Of a stretch of DNA of 37,497 nt, positions 8,803 through 36,505 are shown in pieces. Below the pieces are notes generated by a model. It did no database searches and was not told where the DNA came from. It saw only the letters and a list, made by a program, of their open reading frames with translations. The translations under genes and the position numbers were made by a program. This DNA is from an uncultured Clostridia bacterium. Its GTDB lineage: Bacteria > Bacillota > Clostridia > Oscillospirales > Oscillospiraceae. Numbering within the stretch: position 1 is the stretch's first letter; each line of letters opens with the position of its first letter. Location: positions 1-37,497 of the forward strand of contig CAMOXI010000012.1 in NCBI GenBank assembly GCA_946628965.1, in the 5' to 3' direction.

Positions 8803-9636
8803 TCAGCCTTTGACTGCGCCGGCCACGAAGCTGTCCTGGATCTTCTTGCTGAGGAAGATGTAAATGAACAGCGTCGGGAAGGTGGCGAGGACGAGAGCGG
8901 CGCCGATGGGGCCCCACTCGGTCGTGTACTGGCCGGAGAGCGCCTGGACGCCGACAGGCAGGGTCCTGAGGGAGGATTTGCTGATGAAGACGTTGGCAAA
9001 CATCAGCTCGTTCCAGCACTGCAGGAAGGTGTAAATGCCGACGGTAGCCACCGCGGGCTTCATCAGCGGTACGATGATGCGCAGGAAGATCCCCCACACG
9101 CTGCAGCCGTCGATGCAGGCGCTTTCATCCAGCTCGCGCGGGATCTCATTCATGAAGCCCGTGCAAACCAGGATCGCCATGGACAGCGAGAAGGCGGAGT
9201 AGGGAATGATCAGCGCCCAATAGGTGTTGAGCAGGTGCAGCCGGGAGAGCGTCACATAAACGGGGACGATGGAGGCGTGAATGGGGATCGTCAGACCAAG
9301 CATGAAGAACTTGTTGAGCGTCTTGCGCTGCTTCCAGATCAGCCGCGTCAGCGCAAAGGTGGCCATCAGCGCAACGACAAGCGTGATGAGGATCGTCGCA
9401 ATGGCAACGATGGCGCTGTTCAGGAAGTAAACGCCCATCTTGCCGGTGTTCAAGGCACTGCTGTAGTTCGACCAGAGCCATTCTCTCGGCAGGCCGATGA
9501 TGTTCTCGCCGAAGATCTCCGGATTGCTCTTCAGAGAGAAGGTGAACATCCAGTAGACCGGGAAGAGGTTGACGAGCATCCACAGGATCAGACCGATATA
9601 AATGACGATCTGACGACCTTTACTGATATTTCTCAT
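8803..9636 (-). CDS. Carbohydrate ABC transporter permease (CUT1, MalG-type)
   Basis: A 277-residue inner-membrane subunit with six predicted helices. The EAA loop that docks the ATPase is visible as PRELDESACIDGCSVWGIFLRIIVPLMKP (about residues 167-194). VGVQALSGQYTTEWG near residue 228 and the ending SFVAGAVKG are typical MalG features. It lies 1 base after the upstream permease stop, forming a permease pair for the lipoprotein at 10616-11941. No ATPase gene is adjacent; in Firmicutes CUT1 systems one shared MsmK/MsiK-type ATPase often serves several transporters. A cello-oligosaccharide substrate is inferred from the GH94 and GH3 neighbours. Confidence 0.93.
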   Translation of the reverse strand: MRNISKGRQIVIYIGLILWMLVNLFPVYWMFTFSLKSNPEIFGENIIGLPREWLWSNYSSALNTGKMGVYFLNSAIVAIATILITLVVALMATFALTRLIWKQRKTLNKFFMLGLTIPIHASIVPVYVTLSRLHLLNTYWALIIPYSAFSLSMAILVCTGFMNEIPRELDESACIDGCSVWGIFLRIIVPLMKPAVATVGIYTFLQCWNELMFANVFISKSSLRTLPVGVQALSGQYTTEWGPIGAALVLATFPTLFIYIFLSKKIQDSFVAGAVKG

Positions 9637-9637
9637 C

Positions 9638-10516
9638 TCAGTCCTCCTCCTTGAAGATGGCGCTGATCAGCAGCGCAAAGCCGAAGCACAGAATGATCAG
9701 CATGACTGCGATCGTGCTGCCCATGCCGTAGCGGTTGCGCAGGAACAGCATGTTTATCATCAGCGTGCTCGGCACCTCCGTGGCGTGCAGCGGGCCGCCG
9801 TTCGTCAGGACGTAGATCAGATCGAAGGATTTGAGCGAGCCGGTCACTGCGAAAATGACGCTGATGCGAATGATCGGTTTGATGTAGGGAAGGACGATAT
9901 AACGGTTGACCTGTCCGTCGGTCGCCCCGTCGAGCATGGCGGCCTCGCGCAGCTCTTGCGGCACGCTTTTGACGCCCGCGTAGAGCAGCAGCATATGGTA
10001 GCCGACGTACTGCCACAGCGTCGGGACAAAGACCGCGCCCAGTGCAGTCTTCTTGTTCCCCAGCCAGATCTGTGCCCAGTCTTCGCGGCCGATGCTGCGC
10101 AGGAACACGTTCAAAATGCCGTAATCCGGATTGTAGATCTTCAGCCAGAGCTGGCCGATGACCACGGTGGAGATCAGAACCGGCATGAAATAGACCGAAA
10201 GGAAAGTCCGCTCGCCCTTGATCTTCTTGCCCAGCGTGAGTGCCAGGGCAAGAGCCAGCGGCAGCTGCAGGAACACCGACAGCAACGCGAGCAGCAAAGA
10301 GTTGCGCAGCGCCTTCAGAAAGCCGATGGCGTTGCTGGTAAAGAGCTCCTTGTAGTTGGAAAAGCCGATAAAGGTTTTGGCTCCGAAACCGCTCCAGTCA
10401 AAGAAACTGAAATAGGCGGAGGCGCCGATCGGCGCGATCAGCACGCCGCAGAAAAGGAGCAGCGCCGGCAGCAGAAAAATCAGGATATGAAGTTTGTTGC
10501 TGTAAAGCTTTTTCAT
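9638..10516 (-). CDS. Carbohydrate ABC transporter permease (CUT1, MalF-type)
   Basis: A 292-residue membrane subunit with six predicted helices, starting LHILIFLLPALLLFCGVLIAP. The EAA motif PQELREAAMLDGATDGQVNRYIVLPYIKP lies near residues 179-207, followed by FAVTGSLKSFDLIYVLTNGGP, a classic MalF-type segment. It pairs with the MalG-type permease 1 base downstream. A hairpin separates it from the binding-protein gene upstream, which probably lowers its expression relative to that gene. Confidence 0.94.
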   Translation of the reverse strand: MKKLYSNKLHILIFLLPALLLFCGVLIAPIGASAYFSFFDWSGFGAKTFIGFSNYKELFTSNAIGFLKALRNSLLLALLSVFLQLPLALALALTLGKKIKGERTFLSVYFMPVLISTVVIGQLWLKIYNPDYGILNVFLRSIGREDWAQIWLGNKKTALGAVFVPTLWQYVGYHMLLLYAGVKSVPQELREAAMLDGATDGQVNRYIVLPYIKPIIRISVIFAVTGSLKSFDLIYVLTNGGPLHATEVPSTLMINMLFLRNRYGMGSTIAVMLIILCFGFALLISAIFKEED

Positions 10517-10540
10517 GTGTCACACCCCTCTGATTTGGGA

Positions 10541-10582
10541 GGCGGCTCCCACAGATCCCTGGACGATCTGTGTGGAGCCGCC
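10541..10582 (-). terminator. Intra-operon hairpin between binding protein and permease genes
   Basis: A stem of about 17 bp (ggcggctccc...agatc with gatctgtg...gccgcc) in the 99-base gap. Read on the operon strand it has no T run after it, so it fits a processing or RNA-stabilising structure that keeps binding-protein mRNA in excess. Confidence 0.65.
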
Positions 10583-10615
10583 TTTTTTCAGTGCCGGAAG
10601 TCCGGCGGGAGGCGA

Positions 10616-11941
10616 TTAGCCGAGGTCCTTGGTCAGACCGGCAACAAAGCCCTCACCGTCGATCTCGCAGCCGTAGACCTGGGCGACATAGCTCAGGTAG
10701 GTGTTGGCCGGGTCGGCGCTCATGGCGGTGTCGCCAAAGAGAACCATGCCGTCGGAGGCGGCGACGATGTCGGCAACAGCGGCGACCAGAGGCAGCACGT
10801 CACTGGTGTCGTAATCGGGCGTCCAGGCCGGCAGGCCGGCACCGGCGAGGTAGCAGTAGTGGCAGATCCCGCGGCCGAGCTCAAAAGCAGCCTGGGCAGC
10901 CAGCTCCGGATGCTTGGAGGAGGCGCAGACGGCGAGAGAGTCGGACGGGCCGCCGATGACCTGGCTGTAGGTGGCGCGGTCGGCGTTCATGACCGGGAAC
11001 AGGGCGACAGCAGCGTTGAAGTCAGCGTTGTTGACCTCACCGGTGTTCCAGGAGCCGTTCTGATAGAAGGCGGTCTTGCCGGCGAGGAAGTTGGCCTTGA
11101 CCTCGTCGTTGCCGAGAGCCATGCCGGCGGGATCGAAGTAACCCTTGTTGATCATATCCTGGAAGGTGGAAACAGCGGTGGCGATGTCGGGATCGTTCCA
11201 GGTGGCCTGGCCCTGGAAGATGGCGTTCAGCGCTTCATAGCCGATCGTCTTCTCCATGATGGGCTCGAGGTACTCAGTCACGCACCAGGTCTCCTTGCCG
11301 GCGCAGCCGAAGGGGATGATGCCCTCAGCAACCAGAGCGTCGCAGCAGGCGCAGAGATCCTCGTAGGTCTCGGGGACGTGATCCCAGCCGACCTGGCCGA
11401 GCAGATCCATGTTGGCGAAGAGGGTGACGATGTTGTAGGTCAGAGGAACTGCGTAGTGCTTGCCGCCGTAGGTGGAGTTGGAGAGCATGACCTCGGGCAG
11501 CTGATCGGCGAAGGGCTTGTAGGCCTCGTCCAGGCAGTAGACCGTGCCGGCGTTGGCGAAGTCGCCAAGGAAGGCGCCGGACCAGGTGAAGAAGATGTCA
11601 GGCAGATCCTCGGTGTCGCCGCCCATCATCGCGGCCTTGATCTTGGTCTTGTAGGACTCGTTCTCGAAGGCTTCCCACTCGATCTTGATGTCGGGGTGAG
11701 CGGCCTCAAACTCGGCGATGGCCTTCTCATAGCCGGGGCGGTTGGCGTCGCTTTCGGTCGCGATGCACCACAGCTTCAGAACGGTCTGCTCACCGGCAGG
11801 GGCTTCGGCAGCAGGGGCCTCGGCGGCAGGAGCTTCAGCGGCGGGGGCTTCGGCAGCGGGGGCAGGGGCGGCCTGCTGTCCGCAGGCGGCCAGCGCAAAG
11901 ACCATGCAGAGCGCAAGGACAAGAGCAAAAATCTTTTTCAT
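10616..11941 (-). CDS. Sugar ABC transporter substrate-binding lipoprotein (CUT1)
   Basis: A 441-residue extracellular solute-binding protein, family 1. The N-terminus is a lipoprotein signal (MKKIFALVLALCMVFALAAC) with lipidated Cys20. A linker of about 30 residues follows, built from repeated AEAPA units, which would space the protein from the membrane. The mature part begins VLKLWCIATESD, with AIAEFEAAHPDIKIEWEAFE as the usual first-lobe helix and strand, and AGKTAFYQNGSW near residue 309, the signature of the family. AGGAGG precedes the ATG. With the two permeases it forms an importer; cello-oligosaccharides are the likely cargo (inference from neighbours). Confidence 0.94.
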   Translation of the reverse strand: MKKIFALVLALCMVFALAACGQQAAPAPAAEAPAAEAPAAEAPAAEAPAGEQTVLKLWCIATESDANRPGYEKAIAEFEAAHPDIKIEWEAFENESYKTKIKAAMMGGDTEDLPDIFFTWSGAFLGDFANAGTVYCLDEAYKPFADQLPEVMLSNSTYGGKHYAVPLTYNIVTLFANMDLLGQVGWDHVPETYEDLCACCDALVAEGIIPFGCAGKETWCVTEYLEPIMEKTIGYEALNAIFQGQATWNDPDIATAVSTFQDMINKGYFDPAGMALGNDEVKANFLAGKTAFYQNGSWNTGEVNNADFNAAVALFPVMNADRATYSQVIGGPSDSLAVCASSKHPELAAQAAFELGRGICHYCYLAGAGLPAWTPDYDTSDVLPLVAAVADIVAASDGMVLFGDTAMSADPANTYLSYVAQVYGCEIDGEGFVAGLTKDLG

Positions 11942-12081
11942 AATATTCCTCCTGTTTTTGATGGTTGATGGTTGGTTTGCGTACTACTAAAGAATTGGGC
12001 GAAACGCGGAGCCGATCCTTGTCCAGGCAGACGGTAGACCGCGTCGGCCAAAGTCTTCACAAAAGAAGGGAGTGCCCTGTC

Positions 12082-14178
12082 TCAGGGGCGGGAGAGGGGA
12101 AGAGAGAGCGGCTTGCGTCCGGTCAGCTCCGCAGTGCGTTGATCCGGTGCGCCGAAGCCGGCGTAGAGGGTCCAGCTGCCGCTGCCCGGCAGCCGCTCGC
12201 CCGCATCGTTGACGACGGTGAAGGCCGCCTTGTCGATCTCGATCGTGAGCGCCTTCTCCTCGTGCGGGGCAAGATGAATACGGCGGAAGCCGCAGAGCAC
12301 GGGATTGGGCGGCGCGAAAGCCGAGTCCTCGTCGTGCAGATAGAGTTCGACGACCTCCTCAAGCTCGCGGTCGCTCTCATTTCTGACCGTGAGCCTTGCG
12401 TGTCCGGTATCCGCCTCCAGAGAGGAGAGGGAGCAGCTGCCGTAGCTCAGGCCGTAGCCGAAGGGGTAGAGCGGCGTTTCCCGATAATAGCGGTAGGTGC
12501 GGCCGCGCATGGAGTAGTCCGTGAATGCGGGCATATGGGCGAGCGCGTCGTTGCGATAAAAGGTGACGGGCAGCTTGCCCGAGGGCGATTCATTTCCGAA
12601 GAGCAGCTCGGCAACGGCACGGCCGCCGGAAGCGCCGGGATACCAGCTCAGCAGGACGGCGTCCGCCTTTTCCTGGGCCTCGGAGAGATCAATCGCGCTG
12701 CCGGCCATCAGGATCACGACCGTCGGCTTCCCGAGGGCGAGCACACGCGAGAGCAGAGCCCGCTGCGGCGCCGGCAGGAGCAGATCCGCCTTGTCGCCGG
12801 AATAGTAGCTGTTCCCGGTGTCACCCTCTTCGCCCTCCAGCGTCTCGTCGAGACCGAGGACGAGGATCACCTTGTCGCTGTTCTTTGCGACGGCGACTGC
12901 CTCCGCGATCCGGTCATCAGCCTGGGCGAGCGGCTCGACGCGGTCTTCGCTCAGCGCGCAGCCCTGCGAATAGAGGATGCGGCAGCGCCCGGCCGTCAGA
13001 TCCTGGATCCCCTCCAGGACGGTGACATAGCGCGAGGCCGTGCCGTGGTAGTTGCCGATCAGCGCGGAGCGGCTGTTGGCGTTGGGGCCGATCACGCCGA
13101 TCGTTTCGCCTGCCTCGAGGTCGAGCGGCAGCAGACCGTCGTTCTTGAGCAGCACGCAGGAGCGCAGCGCCGCCCGGTGTGCGAGCGCGAGATGCTCCTC
13201 ACTTTCGATCACGTCGTAGGGGATCGCATCGTATTCGCTGCCCTCGCCGCCGAGAATACCGAGCAGGAAACGGGTCGTAAAGAGTCGGACCGCACAGCGG
13301 CGGATATCCTCCTCCGTGACGAGGCCCAGCTCATAGGCGTGCATGATGTGCTGATATGTACAGCCGCAGTTGAGGTCGCAGCCCGCCTTCAGCGCTTTGG
13401 TAACAGATTCGACGGGCGAGGCGGTGATCTTGTGGTTTTCGTGGAAGTCCCGGATCGCCCAGCAGTCGGAGACGAAGTGGCCCTGGAAGCCCCATTCGCC
13501 GCGGAGCTTCTGCATCAGGGTCTCGCTCGCGCAGCAAGGCTCGCCGTTCGTGCGGTTGTATGCGCCCATCACAGATTCAACCCCGGCGTCGCAGACGAGC
13601 GTCCGGAAGGCGGGGAGATAGGTCTCCTCCATGTCCTTGGGCGAGACAAGTGCGTTGAAGCTGTGCCGGAGCGCCTCGGGACCGCTGTGCGCGGCGAAGT
13701 GCTTGGCACAGGCGCTTGTTTTCAGCGACTCTCCCTCACCCTGCAGACCGCGGACGAAGGCGGCGCCGAGACGGGAGGTCAAATAAGGATCCTCGCCGTA
13801 GGTCTCGTGGCCGCGCCCCCAGCGGGGATCACGGAAGATGTTGACGTTGGGCGACCACATCGTCAGCCCATGGTAGATATCGCGGTCGCCCTCGGCGGAA
13901 AGCGCGTTGTATTTCGCACGCGCCTCGTCAGCGATCGCGGAGGCGATCTTCTGCAGCAGCTCGTCGTCAAACATGGCCGCCATACCGATCGCCTGGGGAA
14001 AGCTGGTTGCGGTACCGCCGCGGGCAAGCCCGTGCAGCGCCTCGTTCCACCAGTTGTATGCGGGGATGCCGAGCCTCTCGATGGCAGGAGCGTCAAAGCG
14101 CAGTTGACCGGCCATTTCTTCGACCGTCATCCGCCCAACCAGTTCTTCCGCCAGCTGTTTTGCATGCTCCCGCGTCAT
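12082..14178 (-). CDS. Glycoside hydrolase family 3 (beta-glucosidase/beta-xylosidase type)
   Basis: A 698-residue GH3 enzyme without signal peptide, so cytoplasmic. It has the N-terminal TIM-barrel (NWWNEALHGLARG about 42-54; NIFRDPRWGRGHETYGEDP about 113-131; KHFAAHSGPE about 159-168; VSDCWAIRDF about 236-245, with Asp238 the probable nucleophile), then the alpha/beta sandwich domain (GVIGPNANSR), and a C-terminal fibronectin-III-like domain (from about residue 590). The sequence type is that often annotated as xylosidase/glucosidase; the GH94 and transporter context favours beta-glucosides. It lies 47 bases after the LacI gene and 140 before the binding-protein gene, same strand, so the four-step unit lacI-GH3-binding protein-permeases is likely. 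Confidence 0.93.
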   Translation of the reverse strand: MTREHAKQLAEELVGRMTVEEMAGQLRFDAPAIERLGIPAYNWWNEALHGLARGGTATSFPQAIGMAAMFDDELLQKIASAIADEARAKYNALSAEGDRDIYHGLTMWSPNVNIFRDPRWGRGHETYGEDPYLTSRLGAAFVRGLQGEGESLKTSACAKHFAAHSGPEALRHSFNALVSPKDMEETYLPAFRTLVCDAGVESVMGAYNRTNGEPCCASETLMQKLRGEWGFQGHFVSDCWAIRDFHENHKITASPVESVTKALKAGCDLNCGCTYQHIMHAYELGLVTEEDIRRCAVRLFTTRFLLGILGGEGSEYDAIPYDVIESEEHLALAHRAALRSCVLLKNDGLLPLDLEAGETIGVIGPNANSRSALIGNYHGTASRYVTVLEGIQDLTAGRCRILYSQGCALSEDRVEPLAQADDRIAEAVAVAKNSDKVILVLGLDETLEGEEGDTGNSYYSGDKADLLLPAPQRALLSRVLALGKPTVVILMAGSAIDLSEAQEKADAVLLSWYPGASGGRAVAELLFGNESPSGKLPVTFYRNDALAHMPAFTDYSMRGRTYRYYRETPLYPFGYGLSYGSCSLSSLEADTGHARLTVRNESDRELEEVVELYLHDEDSAFAPPNPVLCGFRRIHLAPHEEKALTIEIDKAAFTVVNDAGERLPGSGSWTLYAGFGAPDQRTAELTGRKPLSLPLSRP

Positions 14179-14225
14179 TTGGCTCCTGTTCCTTTCTTTG
14201 ATATATAGGACCCCGGTCAGTCCGC

Positions 14226-15236
14226 TCAGCCCAGCCGCTTCACGGAGCCGCCCTCCAACAGGCTTCCTCCGATCACGAGGTGCTCCTGCAGCGAGGTGCG
14301 GGGGTGTTCGATCCGCTCGATCAGCATGGCCGCAGCAGTCCGGCCCAGCTCGTCTGTGTTCTGATGCCAGGTCGTGAGGCGGGGGCTGACTGCCCTTGCC
14401 AGGTCGATCCCGTCATAGCCCATGACGGAGATATCCTCCGGGATGCGAAGCCCCATCTCACGGATGGCGTTGATTCCGCCAAGTCCCGCATAGTCGTCGG
14501 GGAAGAGGATGCAGCTCGGACGCTCGGGCAGAGAAAGCAGACGCAGCGTGGCCTCGCGGCAGTAGTCCGGATGGTGGTAGGCACAGGGCTGGACATACTC
14601 CTCGGGCAGCGAAAGCTGCAGCGCTTCGCAGACCCGGTAAAAGCCGGTCAGCCTGTTTTCCGTCACCGCGGTCCGGTTGCCGTGGATATAGGCGATGCGG
14701 CGGTGCCCCATCGCATAGGCGTGCCGGACAAGGGCTTCTATCCCCTGCATGTTGTCCGACAGCACAGCGCAGCGGTTGTTGAAGGCGTGGTCAAGCGTTA
14801 CGACCGGGACATTGGAGAATACCAGCTCCTGAATACCGGGGTCCAGAAAGTCCGCACAGATGATGGCGACGCCTTCGACCTGCCGATACAGGGCGTGCTG
14901 CAGATAGCTCGCCTGGTGATGACCGATGTCGCTGCTGATGAAGGTGATGTCATAGCCGCAGCGCTCCGCCTCAAAGCGAAAGCTGTTGAGCGTCGAAGCA
15001 AAGTATTCGTGCGTGAAGCCGCTGTTCTGCAGATCCGAGAAGAGGATGCCCAGATTATAGGTGCGGTTGGTCTTCAGCGCGCGCGCCGCGGAATTGGCGG
15101 TATAGCCCAGCTCCTTCGCCACCGCGATGACACGCTCTCGCGTTGCCTCGCCGATATCCCGGTGCCCGTTCAGGGCCTTGCTCACGGTGGCAACGGAGAC
15201 GCCGCACTTGCGTGCAACATCCTTCATCGACACCAC
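14226..15236 (-). CDS. LacI family transcriptional regulator
   Basis: A 336-residue repressor. The N-terminal helix-turn-helix MKDVARKCGVSVATVSKALNG and the hinge helix region (TANSAARALKTNRTYNLGIL) are typical, followed by the periplasmic-binding-protein-like sugar sensor domain with PSCILFPDDYAGLGGINAIRE and VMGYDGIDLARAVSPRLTTW. The frame is open to a TTG at 15275, but the GTG at 15236 has AAAGGGG eight bases upstream, and the longer form would put an operator-like site inside the coding region, so GTG is chosen. Expected effectors are cello-oligosaccharides or a metabolite of them; the targets are the two operator-like sites described at 15252 and 15506. Confidence 0.92.
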   Translation of the reverse strand: MVSMKDVARKCGVSVATVSKALNGHRDIGEATRERVIAVAKELGYTANSAARALKTNRTYNLGILFSDLQNSGFTHEYFASTLNSFRFEAERCGYDITFISSDIGHHQASYLQHALYRQVEGVAIICADFLDPGIQELVFSNVPVVTLDHAFNNRCAVLSDNMQGIEALVRHAYAMGHRRIAYIHGNRTAVTENRLTGFYRVCEALQLSLPEEYVQPCAYHHPDYCREATLRLLSLPERPSCILFPDDYAGLGGINAIREMGLRIPEDISVMGYDGIDLARAVSPRLTTWHQNTDELGRTAAAMLIERIEHPRTSLQEHLVIGGSLLEGGSVKRLG

Positions 15237-15251
15237 AGGATCAGCCCCTTT

Positions 15252-15265
15252 ACTTAATCGTTTTC
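15252..15265. promoter_or_regulatory. Operator-like site 1 (lacI leader)
   Basis: ACTTAATCGTTTTC on the plus strand; 13 of 14 bases match the site at 15506-15519. It lies just downstream of the lacI start-point, between promoter and ribosome binding site, where a bound repressor would block transcription. Confidence 0.65.
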
Positions 15266-15274
15266 GTTGTTTCA

Positions 15275-15303
15275 AAAATAGCGCAAAACAACAGAAAATG
15301 CAA
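15275..15303 (-). promoter_or_regulatory. Promoter of the lacI-GH3-transporter unit
   Basis: On the minus strand TTGCAT (15303-15298), 17 bases, TATTTT (15280-15275). Both boxes are partial matches but the spacing is ideal. Confidence 0.55.
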
Positions 15304-15460
15304 GTGCTTGGGGCGATTTCTTTTGATTTCGTTAGGCATGCACAATCAGAAAGGGAGGTTTTTGTATATTTTTAACAGAGCTCCGGCGGCTCTTCCTGAG
15401 GTCCTGCAGGACGAACGCCCCAAATAAGCGGATTAATGGGGAAAATGCTAAAAAAAGGAC

Positions 15461-15519
15461 TTGCAATTTGACTGCGTTTCAGATACTCTTAATAAGTAAG
15501 CAAGAACTTAAACGTTTTC
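15461..15519 (+). promoter_or_regulatory. Promoter and operator-like site 2 for the GH94 gene
   Basis: TTGCAA (15461-15466), 17 bases, TACTCT (15484-15489) is a weak promoter; TTGACT at 15468 is an alternative -35. ACTTAAACGTTTTC at 15506-15519 has the palindromic core AAACGTTT typical of LacI-family operators (also close to a cre site) and sits directly before the AGGAGG. Confidence 0.6.
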
Positions 15520-15533
15520 TTGAGGAGGCAAGC

Positions 15534-17969
15534 ATGCAGTTCGGATATTTTGACGATGCGCGCCGGGAGTACGTGATCACCACGCCGCGCACGCCCTTGC
15601 CCTGGATCAACTACCTGGGCAGCGAAGCCTTTTTTGCGCTCTGCTCCAATACCGCGGGGGGCTACGCCTTTTTCCGCGACGCACGGCTTCGCCGTCTTAC
15701 GCGCTATCGTTACAACAACTGTCCCCTGGATTCCGAAGGCTTTCATATCTATATAAAGGACGACGGGACGGTCTGGAATCCGGGCTGGCAGCCTGTGCAG
15801 GAGGAGCTGGATTCTTACCTTTGCCGCCACGGCCTGGGCTATACCGTGATCGAAGGGGCAAAGAACGGCGTGGCAGTCAGCCAGGAGCTCCTCGTCCCGC
15901 AGGGGGACGACTGCCTGCTCATGCGCGTCAGCGTTCGCAATGAGAGCGCCGAAGAAAAAGAGCTGCGCCTTTTCCCCTACGTGGAATTCTGCCTCTGGGA
16001 CGCCATGGACGACGGCTCCAACTTCCAGCGCAACTATTCCACCGGCGAGGTGGAGGTCGTGGGTGCGGCGATCTATCACAAGACAGAATATCGTGAGCGG
16101 CGCGATCACTACGCTGTCTTCTGGGCGAACCGGCAGCCCGACGGCTTCGACACCTCGCGGGACGCTTTCGTGGGCGTGTACGGCAGCCCCGCCCGGCCGC
16201 AGGCCGTCTTCGGCGCCGGCTGCACCGGAAGCATCGCCCACGGCTGGCAGCCCGTTGCCGCGCAGCAATTTGATCTTTCGCTCGCACCGGGCGAGAGCAG
16301 CTCGCTGATCTTTGGCCTTGGCTACATCGAGAATCCCGCAGAGGAAAAATGGGCAGCCCCCGGCGTCGTCAACAAGACGCGCGCCGAGGCAATGATCGCC
16401 CGCTACGCAGATGACGCCGCTTTCGACGCTGCGCTGGATGCGCTGTGCGCGCATTGGGATGCGCTGCTCTCCGGCTATCGGCTCTCCAGCGGAGAGGAAA
16501 AGCTGGATCGCATGGTCAACATCTGGAACCAGTACCAGTGCATGGTCACCTTCAACATGAGCCGCTCCGCCAGTTATTTTGAATCCGGCATGGGACGCGG
16601 CATGGGCTTCCGGGATTCCTGTCAGGATCTGCTGGGCTTCGTTCATATGATCCCGGAGCGGGCGCGGGAGCGCATTCTGGACATCGCCGCCACCCAATTC
16701 CCCGACGGCAGCGCCTATCACCAGTATCAGCCGCTGACAAAGAAGGGAAATCTCGCGGTGGGAAGCGGCTTCAACGACGATCCGCTCTGGCTGATCGCCG
16801 GGACGGACGCCTATCTGCGCGAGACCGGCGACTGGAGCATCCTCGAAGAGCCGGTGGACTTTGACAACGATCCCTCTCTGGCTCAGCCGCTGCTGGAGCA
16901 TCTGCGCCGCAGTTTCGATTATACCAGGACGCATCTCGGGCCGCACGGCCTGCCGCTGATCGGCCGGGCGGACTGGAACGACTGCCTCAATCTCAACTGC
17001 TTCTCGGAGCATCCGGGCGAGAGCTTCCAGATCACCGGCCCCAGCGAGGGCCCCGTGGCCGAGAGCGTGTTTATTGCCGGCATGTTTGTCAAATACGGCC
17101 GCGCCTGGACGGCAATCTGCCGCCGGCTCGGGCTGGAGCAGGAGGCCGATGCCGGCGACGGGGCCATTGCCGCCGTGGAAAAGGCTGTGCTGGACGCCGG
17201 CTGGGACGGCGCCTGGTTCCGCCGCGCCTTTGACGCCTTCGGGCATGTCGTAGGCGGAAGAGAATGCGAGGAGGGCCAGATCTTCATCGAGCCCCAGGGC
17301 ATGTGCGTCATGGCGGGCATCGGCAAGGAGACGGGCGAGGCCGCCAAAGCGCTGGAGAGCGTGAAGGAACGGCTGGATACGCCGTACGGCATCGTCCTGC
17401 TGCAGCCGGCCTACAGCCGCTATCATCTGGAGCTGGGCGAGATCTCCAGTTATCCCCCCGGCGTCAAGGAAAACGCCGGCATCTTCTGCCACAACAACCC
17501 CTGGATCGTCTGTGCGGAGGCGGAGCTGGGGCATGGCGAGCGCGCCTTTGAGGTCTACCGCCGCACCGCGCCCGCCTACATCGAGGATATCAGCGAGATC
17601 CACCGCACCGAGCCCTATGTCTACAGCCAGATGGTCGCCGGAAAGGACTCCCCGCGCTTCGGAGAGGGGAAAAACAGCTGGCTCACCGGCACGGCGGCCT
17701 GGACCTTCCTCAGCATTTCACAGGCCATCCTGGGCGTGAAGCCCACGCTGGACGGCCTGCAGATCGACCCCTGCGTTCCCGGCTTCCTCCGCCGCTTTAC
17801 GGTCACCCGCCGCTTCCGCGGCGCGGTCTATGCGATCACGGTGGAAAATCCGGACGGAGTGGAGAAGGGCGTTCGCTCCGTCACCCTCGATGGCCAGGAG
17901 ATCGCGGGGACTGTTCTGCCCGTGCAGCCCTCCGGAAGCCGTGTCTCCGTCCTGGTTCGCATGGGCTGA
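15534..17969 (+). CDS. Cellobiose phosphorylase (GH94)
   Basis: An 811-residue cytosolic GH94 enzyme; clostridial cellobiose phosphorylases have this length. It splits cellobiose with phosphate into alpha-glucose-1-phosphate and glucose, saving one ATP. The start [20 protein letters not shown] and the block PWINYLG...[25 protein letters not shown] are hallmarks of this branch. The (alpha/alpha)6 barrel contains [13 protein letters not shown] (about 360-372), [12 protein letters not shown] (about 477-488, containing the catalytic Asp) and [14 protein letters not shown] (about 640-653). GAGGAGG is 5 bases before the ATG. It is divergent from lacI and shares its operator. A different disaccharide specificity (for example laminaribiose) is possible but less likely. 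Confidence 0.93.
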
Positions 17970-28106: not shown

Positions 28107-28520
28107 TCACAGACGCTTTATCAGCGTCAGGACATTCTGCCCGTCCCGAAACTCGTAACGCAGGTCGTCCATGGACTTCCTGGTCATGAAGATGCCGAGA
28201 CCGCCGATCTCCCGTTCCTCCGCGGGGAGCGAAACGTCCGGGTCTGTTCTGTCCAGCGGGTTGAAGGGAATGCCGCTGTCAAGAAAGGTCAGCGTCACCG
28301 TGGGCGGCTCCTCCTGCAGCTCAAGGCGGAGGGTGGCTGTGCCCGTCTCCGGCGCGTAGGCATAGTTCGCGATATTGACATAGATCTCCTCCGCCGCGAC
28401 GGCGATCTGCATCTGCGCCTTGAGCGGGCAGTCCGCTTCCTCCAGGTGCTCCTCGAGAAAAGCATTGACAAGCCTGAGATTGTCGAGCGTAGCGTCTACG
28501 GTCAATTCATACGTTTTCAT
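28107..28520 (-). CDS. RsbW/SpoIIAB-like anti-sigma factor serine kinase
   Basis: A 137-residue GHKL ATPase. It has the N box AVAAEEIYVNIANYAY (about 49-64), the G1 box TFLDSGIPFNP (about 88-98) and the G2 box GGLGIFMTRKSMD (about 113-125). Such proteins bind a sigma factor or other partner and phosphorylate a STAS-domain antagonist on Ser. The ATG at 28520 is chosen; the open frame to 28622 lacks a start signal and lies in the end of the preceding gene. It follows the STAS-kinase gene by 13 bases, so the two are an operon. No sigma factor gene is present in the window. Confidence 0.9.
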   Translation of the reverse strand: MKTYELTVDATLDNLRLVNAFLEEHLEEADCPLKAQMQIAVAAEEIYVNIANYAYAPETGTATLRLELQEEPPTVTLTFLDSGIPFNPLDRTDPDVSLPAEEREIGGLGIFMTRKSMDDLRYEFRDGQNVLTLIKRL

Positions 28521-28533
28521 GGCAGTATTATTC

Positions 28534-29718
28534 TCAAAAGAGAAGCGTTTCCGTCTTGTCAAGAAGTTCCAGCAGCTCCTTTGTCCACAGCGCGATCTCC
28601 GCGCGGCCCTTTTCGCTTTCAAGTCCCTTACGGCGGATGGAGCGGCGGATCATGCGCGTATAGCCGACAATGCGCGCCTTGTCGGCCACCTCGCGGATCC
28701 TGGCCGGGTCGTCCGTCTCCAGATAGGCCGCCAGCACTTTGTTCCAGAAGGTACGGCCCGTTTCATAATCAAAGCCTTGGAAGGACAGAATGACGCTGTG
28801 GTCGTACTCGGAATAGCCGATAAAGGAGTTGTAAATGCTCGCCAGCTCAAAAACCGGATGACCGACGGCCAGCGTGTCCATGTCGATCAGCAGCACCTCG
28901 TCGTTCTGCAGCTCGAGGTTCTTGGTGTGATAGTCCCCATGGAGCATGTGGTCGTCATGGGGAACCGCCTCGACAAGAGCGGCCAGCTTTTCCCAGGCCT
29001 CCTTCGGCAGATGATCCTGCATGAAATCCACCCAGCCGAGGACGGTCTGGCGCATATCCGGCAGCTTGCCCTCCGGCACCACGGTGCTGTGGATGATCTT
29101 GAGCATCTTCACGTATTCCTGCACGCACCAGTCCAGCTTTTCCGGCTCTGAGGCGATGATCTTGGAGAAGGAGCGGGCGTTAAGAAGCTCAAACACGGAA
29201 CCGTAGCTGTTGCCCACGCGCACCACGTCGTAAGAGATCGCGGTGGGGACGCCGAGGATCAGCGCAAGCTTTGCAACCTCGCGCTCATGCTGGATATCCG
29301 CCAGCGCGTCGGCATTGTTATAGACCTTTACAACGTTGTCTTGGTCGATGCGGTAGATGGTGCCGTTCGCGCCGCGTCCGATCTCCTCGCAGCCCTCGAT
29401 GGATACGACCCGATATGCCTTTTCCACGTCCATCATCTGGGTAAAGCCGGTCATGTCCAGGATTTCGTATACCTCGCTGCCGACATTGATCAGGCGCAGC
29501 GTGGGATTGATTTTCCGCAGATGCAGCAGCACGCGCAGCCCCGCGCTGGAGATGTAGCTCAGCTGCTCCAGATCCAGCACGATCTGCCTGTCCGCAGCGT
29601 CCGCGGCCAGCTTCATGATCGCTTCCTCCACCTCGCGCGCATTCACGGAGTCGATGCGCCCGGACAGGGCGATCTTCAGCTGATCGGCAGTCAGGATGCC
29701 ATTGACAACTTCGTTCAT
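28534..29718 (-). CDS. STAS domain fused to APH-like kinase
   Basis: A 394-residue fusion. Residues 1-100 are a STAS domain (anti-sigma-factor antagonist type), with the phosphorylatable serine region YISSAGLRVLL at about 55-65. Residues 107-394 are an aminoglycoside-phosphotransferase/choline-kinase-like fold: glycine-rich loop EIGRGANGTIYRI (112-124), Lys131 in VVKVY, the catalytic loop HGDYHTKN (260-267) and metal-binding LIDMD (277-281). All kinase motifs look intact. I believe it corresponds to a described STAS-phosphotransferase family (TIGR02172-like, from memory). GGGAGAA precedes the ATG at 29718. It is encoded with an anti-sigma kinase and divergent from a PP2C phosphatase, so the STAS part is probably switched by both and controls the attached kinase. 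The kinase substrate is unknown. Confidence 0.88.
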   Translation of the reverse strand: MNEVVNGILTADQLKIALSGRIDSVNAREVEEAIMKLAADAADRQIVLDLEQLSYISSAGLRVLLHLRKINPTLRLINVGSEVYEILDMTGFTQMMDVEKAYRVVSIEGCEEIGRGANGTIYRIDQDNVVKVYNNADALADIQHEREVAKLALILGVPTAISYDVVRVGNSYGSVFELLNARSFSKIIASEPEKLDWCVQEYVKMLKIIHSTVVPEGKLPDMRQTVLGWVDFMQDHLPKEAWEKLAALVEAVPHDDHMLHGDYHTKNLELQNDEVLLIDMDTLAVGHPVFELASIYNSFIGYSEYDHSVILSFQGFDYETGRTFWNKVLAAYLETDDPARIREVADKARIVGYTRMIRRSIRRKGLESEKGRAEIALWTKELLELLDKTETLLF

Positions 29719-30271: not shown

Positions 30272-31537
30272 ATGGAAAAGCTCAGGAAACTTTTCTCCGG
30301 CGGCATTCGGATGAAGATCTTCAGCATGCTGCTGATTACGATCCTTCTGATTATCGCGGCTTACACGGCGATCCTCTTCTACCAGTCGAACAAGGTGGAG
30401 CAGCTTGTCGAGGACAGCTATGAGCTGCAGCAGCAGCTCTTCGCGGAGAGCGGCCTGGAGGACCACTCCGAGCGCGTTTGGAGCGAATCGGTAGAGGTTT
30501 TCCGGCGGGGGATGTTCCACGCCCGGAATATCCTGATCCTTCTGGTGGCCCTGATCGTGGTGACAGGGCTTGCGTCCGCCTTTTCCATTTCAAGCCAGAT
30601 CACCGATCCCCTGAACATGATCACCAAGCGCGTGGCGTCTCTGGGCGTCCGCAACAGGCGCTTCGAGATGGAGGACGCCTACAGAACCGGGGATGAGATC
30701 GAGGTTCTGGCGGAGTCCTTTGCCAAGCAGTCCGCAAGAACTGAACTGTATATTGACCAGGTCAAAAGAGTCACCGCGGAAAAGGAACGGATCGGCACGG
30801 AGCTCGAAATGGCCAGCAGGATCCAGAGCAGCCAGCTGCCCCGCCTGTTTCCGCCCTTCCCGAACCGGAAGGAGTTCGGCCTGTTTGCCAGCATGACGCC
30901 GGCAAAGGAGGTCGGCGGAGACTTCTATGATTTCTTCATGATCGACGACGACCATATTGCCTTCGTCATAGCGGACGTGTCCGGAAAGGGCGTGCCCGCG
31001 TCGCTGGTGATGATGGTCTCCCGCGTTCTGATCAAATCCAGCCTGCAGAACGGCAAGAACCCGGCGGAGGCCCTCGAGAGTGTGAATAACCAGCTCTGCG
31101 AGGGCAACGATGAGGGCTATTTCATCACCGTGTGGCTCGCCGTGTTCGAGATCTCGACGGGAAAAGGCGTGGCGGCCAACGCCGGACACGAGCATCCGGT
31201 GCTGCGCAGGGCAGGGGGCGGCTATGAGCTGCAGGTCTACAGACATTCCATGCCCGTCGGCAGTATGAAGGGTATCCCGTTCAGACAGCATGACTTCCTG
31301 CTGAACCCGGGCGACAGCTTTTTCGTGTACACGGACGGCGTCGCGGAGGCGACGAACGAGCAGAAAGAGATGTTCGGAACCAAGCGCATGCTGGATGCGC
31401 TGAACAAGGACCCGGACGCGCCGCCGGAGCAGATCCTTCCGAACGTTAAATCTGAGATCGACCGCTTTGTGGATGGCGCGGAGCAGTTTGACGATATCAC
31501 GATGCTCTGCTTCCGCTATAACGGGCCTTGCGCTTGA
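30272..31537 (+). CDS. SpoIIE/RsbU-type PP2C phosphatase with HAMP domain
   Basis: A 421-residue membrane protein. TM1 about 15-35, a short extracellular segment (about 36-84), TM2 about 85-106, then a HAMP linker (ISSQITDPLNMITKRVASLG) and a coiled linker (VKRVTAEKERIGTELEMASRIQSSQLP) leading to the SpoIIE PP2C domain. Metal-binding motifs are present: EVGGDFYDFF (about 212-221), IADVSGKGVPASLVMM (about 231-246), NAGHEHP, FFVYTDGVAEATN (about 350-362) and FDDITMLCF near the end. Such enzymes dephosphorylate STAS-domain proteins, here most likely the divergent STAS-kinase fusion. AAGGAG precedes the ATG. The PTS-like gene follows 39 bases downstream. Confidence 0.93.
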   Translation: MEKLRKLFSGGIRMKIFSMLLITILLIIAAYTAILFYQSNKVEQLVEDSYELQQQLFAESGLEDHSERVWSESVEVFRRGMFHARNILILLVALIVVTGLASAFSISSQITDPLNMITKRVASLGVRNRRFEMEDAYRTGDEIEVLAESFAKQSARTELYIDQVKRVTAEKERIGTELEMASRIQSSQLPRLFPPFPNRKEFGLFASMTPAKEVGGDFYDFFMIDDDHIAFVIADVSGKGVPASLVMMVSRVLIKSSLQNGKNPAEALESVNNQLCEGNDEGYFITVWLAVFEISTGKGVAANAGHEHPVLRRAGGGYELQVYRHSMPVGSMKGIPFRQHDFLLNPGDSFFVYTDGVAEATNEQKEMFGTKRMLDALNKDPDAPPEQILPNVKSEIDRFVDGAEQFDDITMLCFRYNGPCA

Positions 31538-31576: not shown

Positions 31577-33202
31577 ATGAAACAGAACCGGATCAGGGGC
31601 GCCCTGAAACTAATCGGAGATATTTTTGTTCCGCTTCTCCCGGGGATCATCAGCGCAGGCTTGTGCGGGGGCTTTGCGTCTCTCATCTCGCAGACCGTAC
31701 CAAACTATACAGAGAACAACCTATGGGCGTTTATCTACCAGATCCTGACGCTGATCAATACCGCCATGATGAGCTTTCTGACCGCCTGGGCGGGCTATCG
31801 GGCGGCGGAGCGCTTCGGCGGAACGCCCATCCTGGGCGGCATGCTGGGCATGATCACCTCCCTCGACGGCATCAATCAGATCTCCTCCATCATGGGTCTG
31901 TATAACAGCGCCGTTCCGCTGGATTCGATCCTCTGCAGCGGGAAGGGCGGCGTGCTGGCGGTGATTGCCGGCGCGCTTCTGATCGCCTTTGTGGAAAAGA
32001 CGATCCGCTCCGTGATGCCCGCGTCGGTCAACATCGTCTTCACACCGCTGCTGACCATGTTCCTCTGCGTGGTCCCCTACATCATCTTCATCATGCCGCT
32101 CTTCGGCTATGCCTCCGGCGGCATCGTCTGGCTGTTCAGCAGAGCCTGCCTGTCCGAGAACGTCCTGATCCGGGCTGTCTCCGGTTACTTTGCCGCCGCC
32201 TTCTTCCTTCCGCTGGTGGCCGCGGGCATGCACCACGGCCTGGTGGCGCTCTACAGCGTTCAGCTGCAGGAGCTCGGCTATATCACGCTGTATCCCGCCC
32301 TCGCCATGGCTGGCGCCGGGCAGGTCGGCGCAGCGTTCGCGCTCTGGAGAAAGGCAAAGAAGGTCGGCAACAACAACCTCTGCTCGGTGATCTCCGGCGC
32401 GCTGCCGGCAGGCCTCCTGGGCGTGGGCGAGCCGCTCATTTACGGCGTAACGCTCCCTCTCGGCAAGCCCTTCCTCACGGCGGGGCTCGGCGCGGGCTTC
32501 GGCGGCGCCTTCATCATGGTCACGCAGGTGGCCTCCACCACCTGGGGCCCCTCAGGGCTGCTGGGCGCCTTTGTGATGATCGCGGGCCCGGGCGGCTCGG
32601 TACAGAGCGTCCTCTTCTACCTGACTGCGCTCGTCATCAGCTATATCGGGGGATATCTCGTCACCAACGCGCTGTACCGCGAAGAGGAGCTGAACTATGA
32701 GGTTTCCGTTTCTGCCAAACAGGCGGACGCCTGGCGCTCCGCATCCTTCTCCAGACTCAGCAGAAAAGACTCCCGGCGGGTCGAGGCGGGAGAATCGCTG
32801 ATGTCTACCGGAAGGCACTATGCCGTCAATCTGGATCTGACGGCGCCCGTCGCCGGCAAGACGGTTCCCATGAAGCAGATCCCGGATATCATGTTCTCCT
32901 CGGGCGTGATAGGCAAATGCGTCGGGATCATGCCGGAGAACGGGCATATCCTCTCTCCCTGCAACGGAACGGTCGTGGAGATCGCAGATACCGGCAATTC
33001 GCTGACCTTCAAGACCGCCGATGGTATGGAAATCCTCGTGCTGGTGGGCATCGATACCTTCCTGCTCAACGGCGACGGTCTCAGCCTTCAGGTCAAGGAA
33101 GGGGAGAGCGTGAAGAAGGGGCAGCCTGTGATGGAGGCAGACCTCGGCCGGATCACGGAGGCCGGGCTCTCGCCTATGGTGATTACCGTCCTGACCAAAT
33201 AA
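31577..33202 (+). CDS. PTS EIIC-EIIA protein lacking EIIB and both EIIA phospho-histidines
   Basis: A 541-residue protein. Residues 1-380 are an EIIC of the glucoside/sucrose/MurNAc superfamily with about ten membrane segments and typical blocks (AAGMHHGLVALYSVQL about 214-229; GVGEPLIYGVTLPLGKPF about 279-296). Residues about 410-541 are an EIIA-Glc domain (LTAPVAGKTVPMKQIPD, FSSGVIGKCVGIMP, LSPCNGTVVEI, GIDTFLLNGDG, VKKGQPVMEADL). Aligned without gaps to E. coli Crr, His75 becomes Asn474 and the active-site His90 becomes Leu489 (codons AAT at 32996 and CTG at 33041). The protein starts directly in EIIC, so no EIIB Cys is present. Normal PTS phosphotransfer by this polypeptide is therefore not expected. 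GGAGAA precedes the ATG; it is downstream of the PP2C gene in one operon. Confidence 0.9.
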   Translation: MKQNRIRGALKLIGDIFVPLLPGIISAGLCGGFASLISQTVPNYTENNLWAFIYQILTLINTAMMSFLTAWAGYRAAERFGGTPILGGMLGMITSLDGINQISSIMGLYNSAVPLDSILCSGKGGVLAVIAGALLIAFVEKTIRSVMPASVNIVFTPLLTMFLCVVPYIIFIMPLFGYASGGIVWLFSRACLSENVLIRAVSGYFAAAFFLPLVAAGMHHGLVALYSVQLQELGYITLYPALAMAGAGQVGAAFALWRKAKKVGNNNLCSVISGALPAGLLGVGEPLIYGVTLPLGKPFLTAGLGAGFGGAFIMVTQVASTTWGPSGLLGAFVMIAGPGGSVQSVLFYLTALVISYIGGYLVTNALYREEELNYEVSVSAKQADAWRSASFSRLSRKDSRRVEAGESLMSTGRHYAVNLDLTAPVAGKTVPMKQIPDIMFSSGVIGKCVGIMPENGHILSPCNGTVVEIADTGNSLTFKTADGMEILVLVGIDTFLLNGDGLSLQVKEGESVKKGQPVMEADLGRITEAGLSPMVITVLTK

Positions 33203-34584: not shown

Positions 34585-35574
34585 CTACAGGAGCCTTTTC
34601 AATACTTCCCCTGTGTCACCGTCTATGCAGATAGAGCGATCTTTGATCACTTCCGGGCAGATGGCCGCGCTGCGGTTGAGGCATGCGTAGACGGCCATGG
34701 AATTCTCCGCAGTCATGGCCCAGAAGGGGTACTTGATGATGACCGGCGTGTTGCCTCCGACGCCCAGTTCAAGGAACAGCACGTGCTGTCCCTCGTGCGC
34801 TTTCAGGAAAGCCGCATAGTTCGCCGAGGCTGCATGCCATCCTGCGTCCTCCACAAAGGTGTCGTCCGCGCGCAGGTTCATCGCCGCGGCCCGCCCGGTT
34901 TTCGGGTCGGTCGGGATCAGGTCGTGCGGCAAGCGCATCGAGAGCTTCTGGTCCTCGGGCACCTGAAAGACGCCGTTTTCGTCCCGCATGAAGCCCTGCG
35001 CCTCCATGGCAAGCATCGTCCAATCCTCATTGTCCCATGTCCTGCCGCCGCGCCCCTGTGCGTCCTGAAAAAGACCGTAATCACCTTGAGTGTAAAACAG
35101 CCGGGACTTGTCAAAGCCCGCGCGCTGGAACTGATGATCCACGTTGGTTGTGATAACGAAATAGTTCTTATCCTTTACCAAGGCCAGCAGATCGGTATAG
35201 ACCGGCTTCGGCGGGTCGATGTAGCGGTTGAAGTAAATATGCCGAGCCCACCAGGCCCAGCGGGTTTCGCTGTCCGGGAAGGGATAGAAGCCTCCGGAAT
35301 ACATGTCCGTGATACCGAAACGCTCTATGAAATCGAAGAAAACCTTCTCGAAGCGCTCGCCGCTGTAGGTCAGCCCGGCGGCTGTGGAAAGTCCCGCTCC
35401 GGCCCCGATCACAACTGTGTCAGTGGTTTTCAGTTCCTCTCTGAGGCTGGCGATGTTTTCTTCCCTGCTTCCTGTTCCCTCACCCAGAGAATAACCAAAG
35501 CCGCGCACAGCGGAAAGGCCCTTGCGGATGGAATCGGAATACCCTTTCGGTCTGTTATCGAAGGCTCTGCTCAT
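34585..35574 (-). CDS. Class M sirtuin (SirTM)-like NAD-dependent protein
   Basis: A 329-residue sirtuin-fold protein. The NAD-binding GAGAGLSTAAGLTYSG is at about residues 57-72, TTNVDHQFQRAGF (about 142-154) is the catalytic N-x-D region with the usual TTNxD motif, and TQGDYG replaces the standard sirtuin catalytic His loop (typically HG). A C-terminal NAD loop (FLELGVGGNTPVIIKYPF) is present. The usual four-Cys zinc module of deacetylase sirtuins is not seen. These features, and overlap with a macrodomain gene, match SirTM proteins, which ADP-ribosylate proteins rather than deacetylate. The ATG at 35574 (20 bases inside the macrodomain gene) is preferred over an upstream GTG at 35595. Confidence 0.88.
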   Translation of the reverse strand: MSRAFDNRPKGYSDSIRKGLSAVRGFGYSLGEGTGSREENIASLREELKTTDTVVIGAGAGLSTAAGLTYSGERFEKVFFDFIERFGITDMYSGGFYPFPDSETRWAWWARHIYFNRYIDPPKPVYTDLLALVKDKNYFVITTNVDHQFQRAGFDKSRLFYTQGDYGLFQDAQGRGGRTWDNEDWTMLAMEAQGFMRDENGVFQVPEDQKLSMRLPHDLIPTDPKTGRAAAMNLRADDTFVEDAGWHAASANYAAFLKAHEGQHVLFLELGVGGNTPVIIKYPFWAMTAENSMAVYACLNRSAAICPEVIKDRSICIDGDTGEVLKRLL

Positions 35575-36391
35575 AATTGCACCTGTCCCTGTCACTGAAT
35601 ACGTTGAAAATGACCCGTTCCATCTTGCCAGAATGGGCGGCGAGCCATTCTGTCACTGTCTGGACAGCGATCTCGGACGCCCGTTCTTTCGGGAAGCGGA
35701 ACACGCCGGTGGAGATGCTGCAGAATGCCACACTGCGGAGACTGTTTTCCGCGCACAGGTCCAGCGTATTCCGGTAACAGTCAGCCAGATCGTTCTCCAG
35801 GTCCGGGGTAAGTCTGTCGTATACGATCGGCCCAACGATGTGCACGACTTTCTTCGCAGGAAGATTATATCCTTCCGTCAGCATCGGCACTGCGGTCGGC
35901 TGCTCATAATTTCTCCCATAGCGGGAACGAAGCGCTTGCATCTGCTGATGGCATTCGGCGCGCAGCTGGATACCCGCATAGGTGTGGATACAGTTGTCGA
36001 TGCAGCTGTGGCAGGGTTGGAAGCAGCCAAGCATCTGTGAATTGGCGGCGTTAACGATCGCGTCCACGGCAAGGCAGGTGATGTCACCCTGCCAGAGGGA
36101 CAGCGTGTCCGCAAAAGGCCGTTTGCTGCCGAGACTCTCCACGATCGAAGGGATCCGATCAAGGGGCACGATCCCTCGTTCTTCCGCCCGCTCCTTCAGG
36201 TACGCGTCCTGGACCAGCAGGGTCTCCTTTGCCATGGGACGAGGCATGCGGATGTTCATCAGGGAACGCAGGAGCCTTTGCCTGCTCTCCGTGTCCGCAG
36301 GCGTCCGCAGATCTTTATACTCAACGGAGTCCGTCTTGAAAGCTTCTAGCAGATAGTCAAGGCGCTGCTCCTGTAACGATATCTTTGTCAT
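35555..36391 (-). CDS. Zinc-type macrodomain protein-ADP-ribose hydrolase
   Basis: A 278-residue protein with an N-terminal helical extension (about 1-90) and a macrodomain from about residue 100. LWQGDITCLAVDAIVNAANSQMLGC is the ADP-ribose binding start, CHSCIDNCIHTYAG carries the Cys/His zinc-ligand cluster of the SirTM-associated class, and YNLPAKKVVHIVGPIV and CSISTGVFRFPKERA are the phosphate loop regions. It would remove ADP-ribose that the overlapping sirtuin adds. GAGGAG precedes the ATG at 36391; the frame is open to 36505 without a start signal. The gene comes first in the operon. Confidence 0.92.
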   Translation of the reverse strand: MTKISLQEQRLDYLLEAFKTDSVEYKDLRTPADTESRQRLLRSLMNIRMPRPMAKETLLVQDAYLKERAEERGIVPLDRIPSIVESLGSKRPFADTLSLWQGDITCLAVDAIVNAANSQMLGCFQPCHSCIDNCIHTYAGIQLRAECHQQMQALRSRYGRNYEQPTAVPMLTEGYNLPAKKVVHIVGPIVYDRLTPDLENDLADCYRNTLDLCAENSLRSVAFCSISTGVFRFPKERASEIAVQTVTEWLAAHSGKMERVIFNVFSDRDRCNYEQSLR

Positions 36392-36476
36392 GCTTCGGTC
36401 TCCTCTTGAAAACAGGGCCCCGGTAATCATCCGAAGCCCTGTACAGTCACTTCCCTGATCCCGGCAATTCTTGTAT

Positions 36477-36505
36477 ATTTTATAACGAACAGGCCGGAAA
36501 ATCAA
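36477..36505 (-). promoter_or_regulatory. Promoter of the macrodomain-sirtuin operon
   Basis: On the minus strand TTGATT (36505-36500), 17 bases, TAAAAT (36482-36477). Confidence 0.65.

Follow-up and report, generated by a model that had tools for sequence, protein, structure and literature searches.

Two adjacent genes of the window, the whole 37,497-nucleotide stretch of DNA analysed here, probably encode a single two-part membrane receptor, in which a PTS permease built of EIIC and EIIA domains would act as the ligand-sensing subunit of a PP2C phosphatase of the SpoIIE type that has no sensor of its own (Table 1). This reading draws on comparative sequence analysis: the linked genes show matched losses, of the chemistry in the permease and of the sensor in the phosphatase, and the simplest account of them would be that the permease is the phosphatase's sensor. 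A regulatory or sensing role for the EIIA domain or the permease had been suggested in the initial annotation of the window, and gene linkage, selection and the lost chemistry all lend support to it.

Table 1. Features of the window that belong to or adjoin the proposed receptor.
Feature	Position	Strand	Basis or remark
HATPase_c_2 anti-sigma-kinase-like protein	28107..28520	-	Pfam
STAS (anti-anti-sigma-like) and APH-fold kinase fusion	28534..29718	-	Pfam PF01740, PF01636
SpoIIE-type PP2C phosphatase, 421 aa	30272..31537	+	Pfam PF07228, 1.1e-47
53-aa extracytoplasmic stub of SpoIIE	30374..30532	+	hydropathy; paralogue comparison
EIIC-EIIA protein without EIIB, 541 aa	31577..33202	+	starts 39 bp past the SpoIIE stop
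EIIC membrane domain, residues 10-370	31604..32686	+	Pfam; HH219-220 and GEPLIYG motif around E285 kept
EIIC-EIIA linker, residues 371-418	32687..32830	+	borders by BLAST; basic motif RxxxFxRxx[R/K]
EIIA domain, residues 419-541, under purifying selection, without phosphorylatable histidine	32831..33199	+	Pfam, Crr alignment, dN/dS
Codon N474, Crr His75 position	32996..32998	+	lost in window, retained in most orthologues
Codon L489, Crr His90 position	33041..33043	+	Leu is a clade trait

Domains, active-site residues and selection in the EIIC-EIIA protein

Pfam analysis of the 541-residue protein detected PTS_EIIC at residues 14-304 (PF02378, 8e-23) and PTS_EIIA_1 at residues 420-540 (7e-35), with no match to EIIB; as the initial annotation had it, EIIB is missing, and none was present either in the proteins or in the fetched flanks of all 39 EIIC-EIIA loci collected. 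Judged as a glucose-superfamily PTS permease, the window protein possesses the EIIC domain and has Leu in place of His90, the phosphorylation site of EIIA. Its best NCBIfam matches were the beta-glucoside IIABC model (2.9e-74) followed by the MurNAc IIBC model (1.7e-56), both far below cut-off. In Crr, phosphorylation takes place on His90, with His75 assisting. Alignment with Crr (1ggr) was ungapped over residues 406-538, with an offset of 399, and placed L489 at His90 and N474 at His75, confirming both replacements first read from the sequence. A sequencing error at these two codons is unlikely: record DFGE01000028.1, assigned to the same strain because it shows a single mismatch across 11,921 bp, encodes the identical 541 residues, a further genome (G116) matches the window at 100% over 4,623 bp, and many other genomes likewise have Leu in place of His90. 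The single-chain structure model of the EIIC-EIIA protein was poor (mean pLDDT 49).

Summed dN/dS values (Nei-Gojobori, 12 close pairs chosen by hand with L077 left out) were 0.065 for EIIA, 0.062 for EIIC and 0.20 for the linker; these values are rough, since dS exceeds 1 in a few pairs, and pairs with dS below 0.02 were dropped, leaving 12, 10 and 10 pairs. By this measure EIIA is under strong purifying selection, close to that on EIIC and with no decay, which agrees with the earlier description of the domain as constrained in structure but not in catalysis. The Leu codon at the His90 position itself varies synonymously (CTG, TTA, TTG, CTT and CTC). The EIIC domain is similarly intact: 138 positions are at least 95% conserved in 41 EIIB-bearing relatives, and the window keeps 136 of them, while in the EIIB-less clade 121 are equally conserved, 15 have the same majority residue and two have changed conservatively.

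The linker measures 47-48 residues in unbroken EIIC-EIIA copies, and its basic motif is found at 37 of 39 EIIC-EIIA loci, compared with none of 12 EIIBCA linkers, which range from 21 to 109 residues (borders by BLAST). PP2C enzymes remove phosphate from Ser and Thr, and this motif contains Ser residues at the same 37 loci; a reversed flow of signal, with SpoIIE, perhaps against a Ser/Thr kinase, setting the phosphorylation or transport of EIIC-EIIA through a Ser/Arg-rich linker, could be imagined on these grounds. We regard it as improbable, because in an alignment of 16 sequences (A1) R387, F391 and R393 are invariant and no Ser of the motif is, and because SpoIIE phosphatases of similar shape usually target STAS proteins.

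The EIIB-less clade and its MurNAc-type relatives

Among 99 whole genomes searched, those of the same genus yielded close orthologues, and the window's own genome carries a second copy (G000:C1), 82% identical and likewise preceded by SpoIIE. Overall, 22 of the 102 genus genomes have the EIIB-less form, one of them (G015) together with the EIIB form; an EIIB-type match alone was obtained in three more, being read in G001 and judged from frame length and match in G118 and G130. An even sampling of 390 further genomes across the class gave a match at E <= 1e-100 in four, with frame lengths that fit EIIBC or EIIBCA, not EIIC-EIIA. Finally, a scan of named genomes took in 80 of 137 relatives, namely 39 EIIB-less and 41 EIIB-bearing loci, with [Clostridium] aminophilum DSM 10710 and Lachnospiraceae NK4A144, MC2017, KH1P17 and KH1T2 among the carriers. 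Many record names of the relatives indicate the ruminant gut as their origin.

Of the 81 rows in the EIIC-domain tree, 40 are EIIB-less, counting the window, and together these make up one side of a branch supported at 100/100. The separate EIIA tree (48 rows), into which 20 of the 39 EIIC-EIIA rows were taken by hand, likewise places these 20 domains on one side of a 100/100 branch. Leu occupies the His90 position at 35 of the 38 readable EIIB-less loci and His at three (L061, L066 and L089), L077 being unreadable there since its EIIA frame is broken after residue ~480. His75 is lost in only three of the 39 loci, those of L054 (window strain; Asn), L088 (Asn) and L080 (Ser), and the EIIB-bearing loci contributed 28 EIIA domains (12 in EIIBCA, 15 in EI-EIIA, one lone), every one with both histidines. 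The picture of a doubly dead EIIA domain thus holds for the window strain but not for the clade: the His90 loss is the shared one, that of His75 is rare, and a double loss across the whole clade was rejected.

The three loci with His at the Crr His90 position possess both histidines, nest inside the Leu clade and are still without EIIB, so that no close homologue in the clade was found to combine both histidines with an adjacent EIIB. By parsimony, the His90 position changed at least twice inside the clade; with every EIIB-bearing row coded as His, including the 14 without EIIA in the protein, the minimum across all rows is three changes (L077 left out). Given these minima and the placement of the three loci inside the Leu clade, His probably came back once or twice. 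L061, L066 and L089 also group together on the EIIA tree, which includes the His90 column itself. When EIIA sites at least 85% uniform in both groups were compared, without L077 (broken frame) and L087 (contig end), three differed: His90 to Leu, Crr 96 from Val to Phe and Crr 103 from Phe to Leu.

The 41 EIIB-bearing relatives comprise 14 EIIBC, 11 EIIBCA and 16 EIIBC-HPr proteins. In 15 of the last 16, the gene is followed by an EI-EIIA gene, forming a self-contained phosphotransfer set; this two-gene arrangement of a MurNAc-type permease looks unusual (L050 800-4640, the same as L101; L051 6570-10410; and 14 further loci). The murQ gene lies in the flank of 17 of the 41 relatives (five confirmed by NCBIfam) and mupG in that of nine. 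S. aureus MurP, which is described as taking MurNAc-GlcNAc and MurNAc, keeps the same gene company (PMC6262408). It is because murQ adjoins the EIIB-bearing relatives that these are considered MurP-like, and by this comparison the EIIB-less clade is a descendant of the MurNAc-type permease family. The window EIIC shares its family with MurP-type permeases; its clade differs from them in having neither EIIB nor a phosphorylatable EIIA histidine, and murQ was absent from the fetched flanks of all EIIB-less loci. Above cut-off, murQ was detected in one of 30 genomes (27 carriers and three with the EIIB form alone), and the weak matches in 26 others, below cut-off, are taken to be SIS-domain proteins of a different kind. 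Use of MurNAc as a nutrient by way of murQ therefore appears unlikely in the EIIB-less carriers, and, with this count and the beta-glucoside model as best match, a MurNAc ligand would be a suggestion from ancestry.

These data also bear on whether EIIC might act as a facilitator, through which sugar would enter downhill to be trapped by a cytosolic kinase, with SpoIIE regulating uptake or being merely co-regulated. The EIIC core is intact, and some other PTS permeases are known to allow facilitated diffusion via their EIIC domains. However, no kinase or hydrolase recurs beside the EIIC-EIIA/SpoIIE pair (by eye), murQ for the presumed ancestral substrate is not above cut-off in 29 of the 30 genomes, and it would be left unexplained why the phosphatase lost its sensor where the permease was gained; we consider such a function unlikely.

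The phosphotransfer chain is incomplete in many carriers. Enzyme I (PF05524) was detected in seven of the 22 genus carrier genomes and not found in the other 15, six of which are 92-96% complete; most genomes are MAGs, and absences of this kind rest on completeness estimates and one model per enzyme. The window's own genome does have Enzyme I on C45, where EIIA-only, HPr and EI genes stand in a row (L053 10515-11105, G000:C45). Missing Enzyme I is not general, since outside the genus the enzyme is usually present: starting from named loci, 15 carrier genomes were reached, some of them again genus genomes, and 12 of these have it, including all nine reached via L063, L082-L086, L091, L095 and L116. 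HPr was detected in 13 of the 15 carriers tested, and the eight HPr genes read all keep the motifs that we take to be the His15 and Ser46 sites. Of the 15 carriers tested, 12 yielded no Glc-family EIIB, and no EIIB was detected in the window's own genome (75% complete); in G057 and G006 an EIIB part lies beside the HPr/EI genes. The EIIA or EIIC domain might then still work in trans, paired with the EIIB or EIIA of another permease, as the above occurrences of Enzyme I and HPr and the three His90 loci, two of which (L061 and L066) are in genomes with Enzyme I, would allow. Leu in place of His90 at 35 of 38 loci, with no Enzyme I detected in 15 of 22 genus carriers and no Glc-family EIIB in 12 of 15 carriers, makes this a very improbable role.

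The linked SpoIIE phosphatase

SpoIIE lies upstream on the same strand at all 38 EIIC-EIIA loci with upstream sequence, at a spacing of -1 to 111 bp, and the operon partnership seen in the window is thus a fixed one; at the 39th locus (L088) the upstream side is cut by the contig end. By comparison, any SpoIIE in the fetched flank was found at three of 41 EIIB-bearing loci (Fisher p = 2e-19, shared ancestry ignored). Genes further out mostly differ between those EIIC-EIIA loci that have enough flank (by eye). The loss of EIIB and of the active-site histidine, together with the broken EIIA frame of L077, might suggest a decaying relic that stands beside SpoIIE by chance, but this is contradicted by dN/dS of about 0.06 in both domains, by synonymous variation of the Leu codon and by 38/38 linkage in mostly differing contexts, and we give it next to no credence.

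From hydropathy and Pfam, the phosphatase consists of a transmembrane helix (residues 16-34), an outside loop (35-87), a second helix (88-106) and the PP2C domain (225-416), with a HAMP-like region recognised by eye. The PP2C motifs GGDFYD, ADVSGKG, TDG and FDD, whose conserved Asp residues are presumably metal-binding, are invariant in 15 SpoIIE sequences, and all 38 linked SpoIIEs align to the 421-residue window protein with at most two residues of length difference. The nearest paralogues, dCache-HAMP-SpoIIE phosphatases of the genus with 725-741 residues, share the homologous first membrane helix and the TM2-HAMP-PP2C part (61-66% identical), and differ in keeping a sensor region of ~300 extra outside residues, inserted between the positions equivalent to residues 55 and 62 of the window protein; no EIIC-EIIA lies in the fetched flanks of L150-L155. 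Among the SpoIIE matches listed (at least 62% identity, 99 genomes), 16 are short, with open frames of 432-505 aa, and adjoin EIIC-EIIA, and six are long (728-753 aa), none of them adjoining it. A dCache_1 domain was detected in the insert of the four scanned of these six long proteins (E 6e-15 to 2e-20) and in the more distant L156, and no Cache hit was obtained by Pfam in the two linked phosphatases scanned, those of the window and L082.

In the SpoIIE tree, the linked phosphatases form a clade (100/100) nested among Cache-type SpoIIEs, with three more distant ones as outgroup; of its nine rows labelled Cache, five were scanned by Pfam (L150, L151, L152, L154 and L156) and L153, L155 and two L157 rows were so labelled by length and likeness. 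The L110 row was left out of the rebuilt tree, its branch of 7.38 indicating probable mis-slicing, and neither SpoIIE tree includes the near-identical rows L054, L060 and L062-L064. From this nesting, the linked phosphatase would by parsimony have lost its Cache sensor. In a mirror-tree comparison, the distances of SpoIIE and EIIC-EIIA correlate moderately (r = 0.45, 34 pairs).

The presence of SpoIIE near three EIIB-bearing relatives means that adjacency alone is no proof of sensing. These loci are arranged as EIIBCA-SpoIIE-STAS (L093), SpoIIE-murQ-EIIBC-HPr (L106) and SpoIIE-EIIBC-HPr (L110), the STAS gene of L093 being small and the SpoIIE frames of L093 and L106 looking broken; they hint that the connection of this permease family with partner switching goes further back.

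Proposed signal path, known systems and partner switching

In the proposed receptor, the EIIC domain, coming from a MurNAc-type permease and with its conserved core intact, would bind a sugar outside the cell, a ligand suggested by descent. The protein would no longer phosphorylate this sugar, there being no EIIB, no His90 and, in many carriers, no Enzyme I. Binding would instead alter the shape of EIIC, a change that would travel through the linker and the EIIA domain, itself catalytically silent, to the HAMP and PP2C parts of SpoIIE, which, with its own Cache sensor lost, would receive the signal within a predicted complex working in this direction. The phosphatase may then dephosphorylate a STAS partner-switch protein, its putative target, and gene expression would change. 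Against the receptor reading stand the His90 residues of L061, L066 and L089, the only moderate mirror-tree correlation and the usual presence of Enzyme I outside the genus. A more far-reaching version, which we put forward tentatively as possible rather than probable, is that a MurNAc-type permease without phosphotransfer has replaced the Cache sensor of SpoIIE and reports cell-wall sugars from lysing rumen neighbours to a partner-switching network, constituting a new receptor class.

Several known systems offer parallels. LacS, a GPH carrier whose EIIA-Glc-like domain has kept the phosphorylatable histidine and regulates rather than energises, resembles EIIC-EIIA as a permease with an EIIA domain and differs in carrier family and in the kept histidine. 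UhpC is a transporter-derived sensor that feeds a signalling protein. For DctA-DcuS and CbrA, too, a transporter or transporter-like protein is described as feeding a signalling protein (PMC4280142, PMC7096432). All three operate with histidine kinases, and none includes a PTS permease or a SpoIIE phosphatase. The kinase BceS, without an extracellular sensor domain, is described as perceiving its ligand through the transporter BceAB (PMC7828314). The pair studied here would be alike, as a sensor-less signal protein relying, as we propose, on a linked transporter, and SpoIIE fits such an intramembrane-sensing layout, with two transmembrane helices, a 53-residue loop and no outer sensor; the difference is that BceAB-BceS joins a histidine kinase to an ABC permease, and here a PP2C phosphatase stands with a PTS EIIC. 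No description of the EIIC-EIIA/SpoIIE pairing was found in the open-access literature searched, and the PTS permease and the PP2C output appear to be the new elements with respect to known transporter-derived sensors.

Transporters turned sensors are thus known for histidine kinases; in the present case a PTS permease seems to have been turned to this use by a PP2C phosphatase. The loss of energy coupling on one side and of the Cache sensor on the other can both be read in living relatives, so that the individual steps from transporter to receptor should be open to testing, also in the named carrier strain [Clostridium] aminophilum DSM 10710. Input signals of partner-switching phosphatases are often unknown, and these enzymes may gain a defined sugar ligand. 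Domain annotation would label EIIC-EIIA proteins as PTS transporters, predicting an uptake that many carriers cannot power.

As to the target, STAS proteins are the usual substrates of SpoIIE-family phosphatases with this architecture, and a STAS protein is most likely here as well; in the window strain the divergently encoded STAS-kinase is a likely candidate. It had been asked at the outset whether the clade always adjoins a PP2C/STAS gene: the PP2C part stood at every locus with upstream sequence, but the STAS part did not. Neither the STAS-kinase nor the HATPase gene turned up in the flanks fetched for the other EIIC-EIIA loci, some of these flanks being short, and both were rejected as fixed partners. 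At genome level, 13 of 15 carriers have STAS-kinase matches at E < 1e-60, compared with 16 of 46 non-carriers of the genus, some of these matches covering the kinase part alone (p = 0.0007, with a threshold set after seeing the list and confounding by ancestry). HD-kinase proteins near L081, L085 and L086 match the query through their kinase part (by eye) and were not counted as STAS. In relatives, HATPase_c_2 is fused to the STAS-kinase (L156, by Pfam; L157, by BLAST), and this STAS-kinase-HATPase single chain adjoins a Cache-type SpoIIE (L156 4009-5586, L157 787-2337). The entire partner-switch set is there contained in two or three genes, the same parts forming two genes in the window.

Two further loci of the window were recorded. 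At 34585-36505 on the minus strand, a Macro-domain protein (Pfam) lies beside a second protein without a Pfam match, which we take to resemble the macrodomain-linked sirtuins (SirTM), and the two look like an ADP-ribosylation pair. Positions 8803-17969 hold a sugar locus with ABC permeases, a binding protein, a GH3 enzyme, a LacI regulator and a GH94-type phosphorylase.
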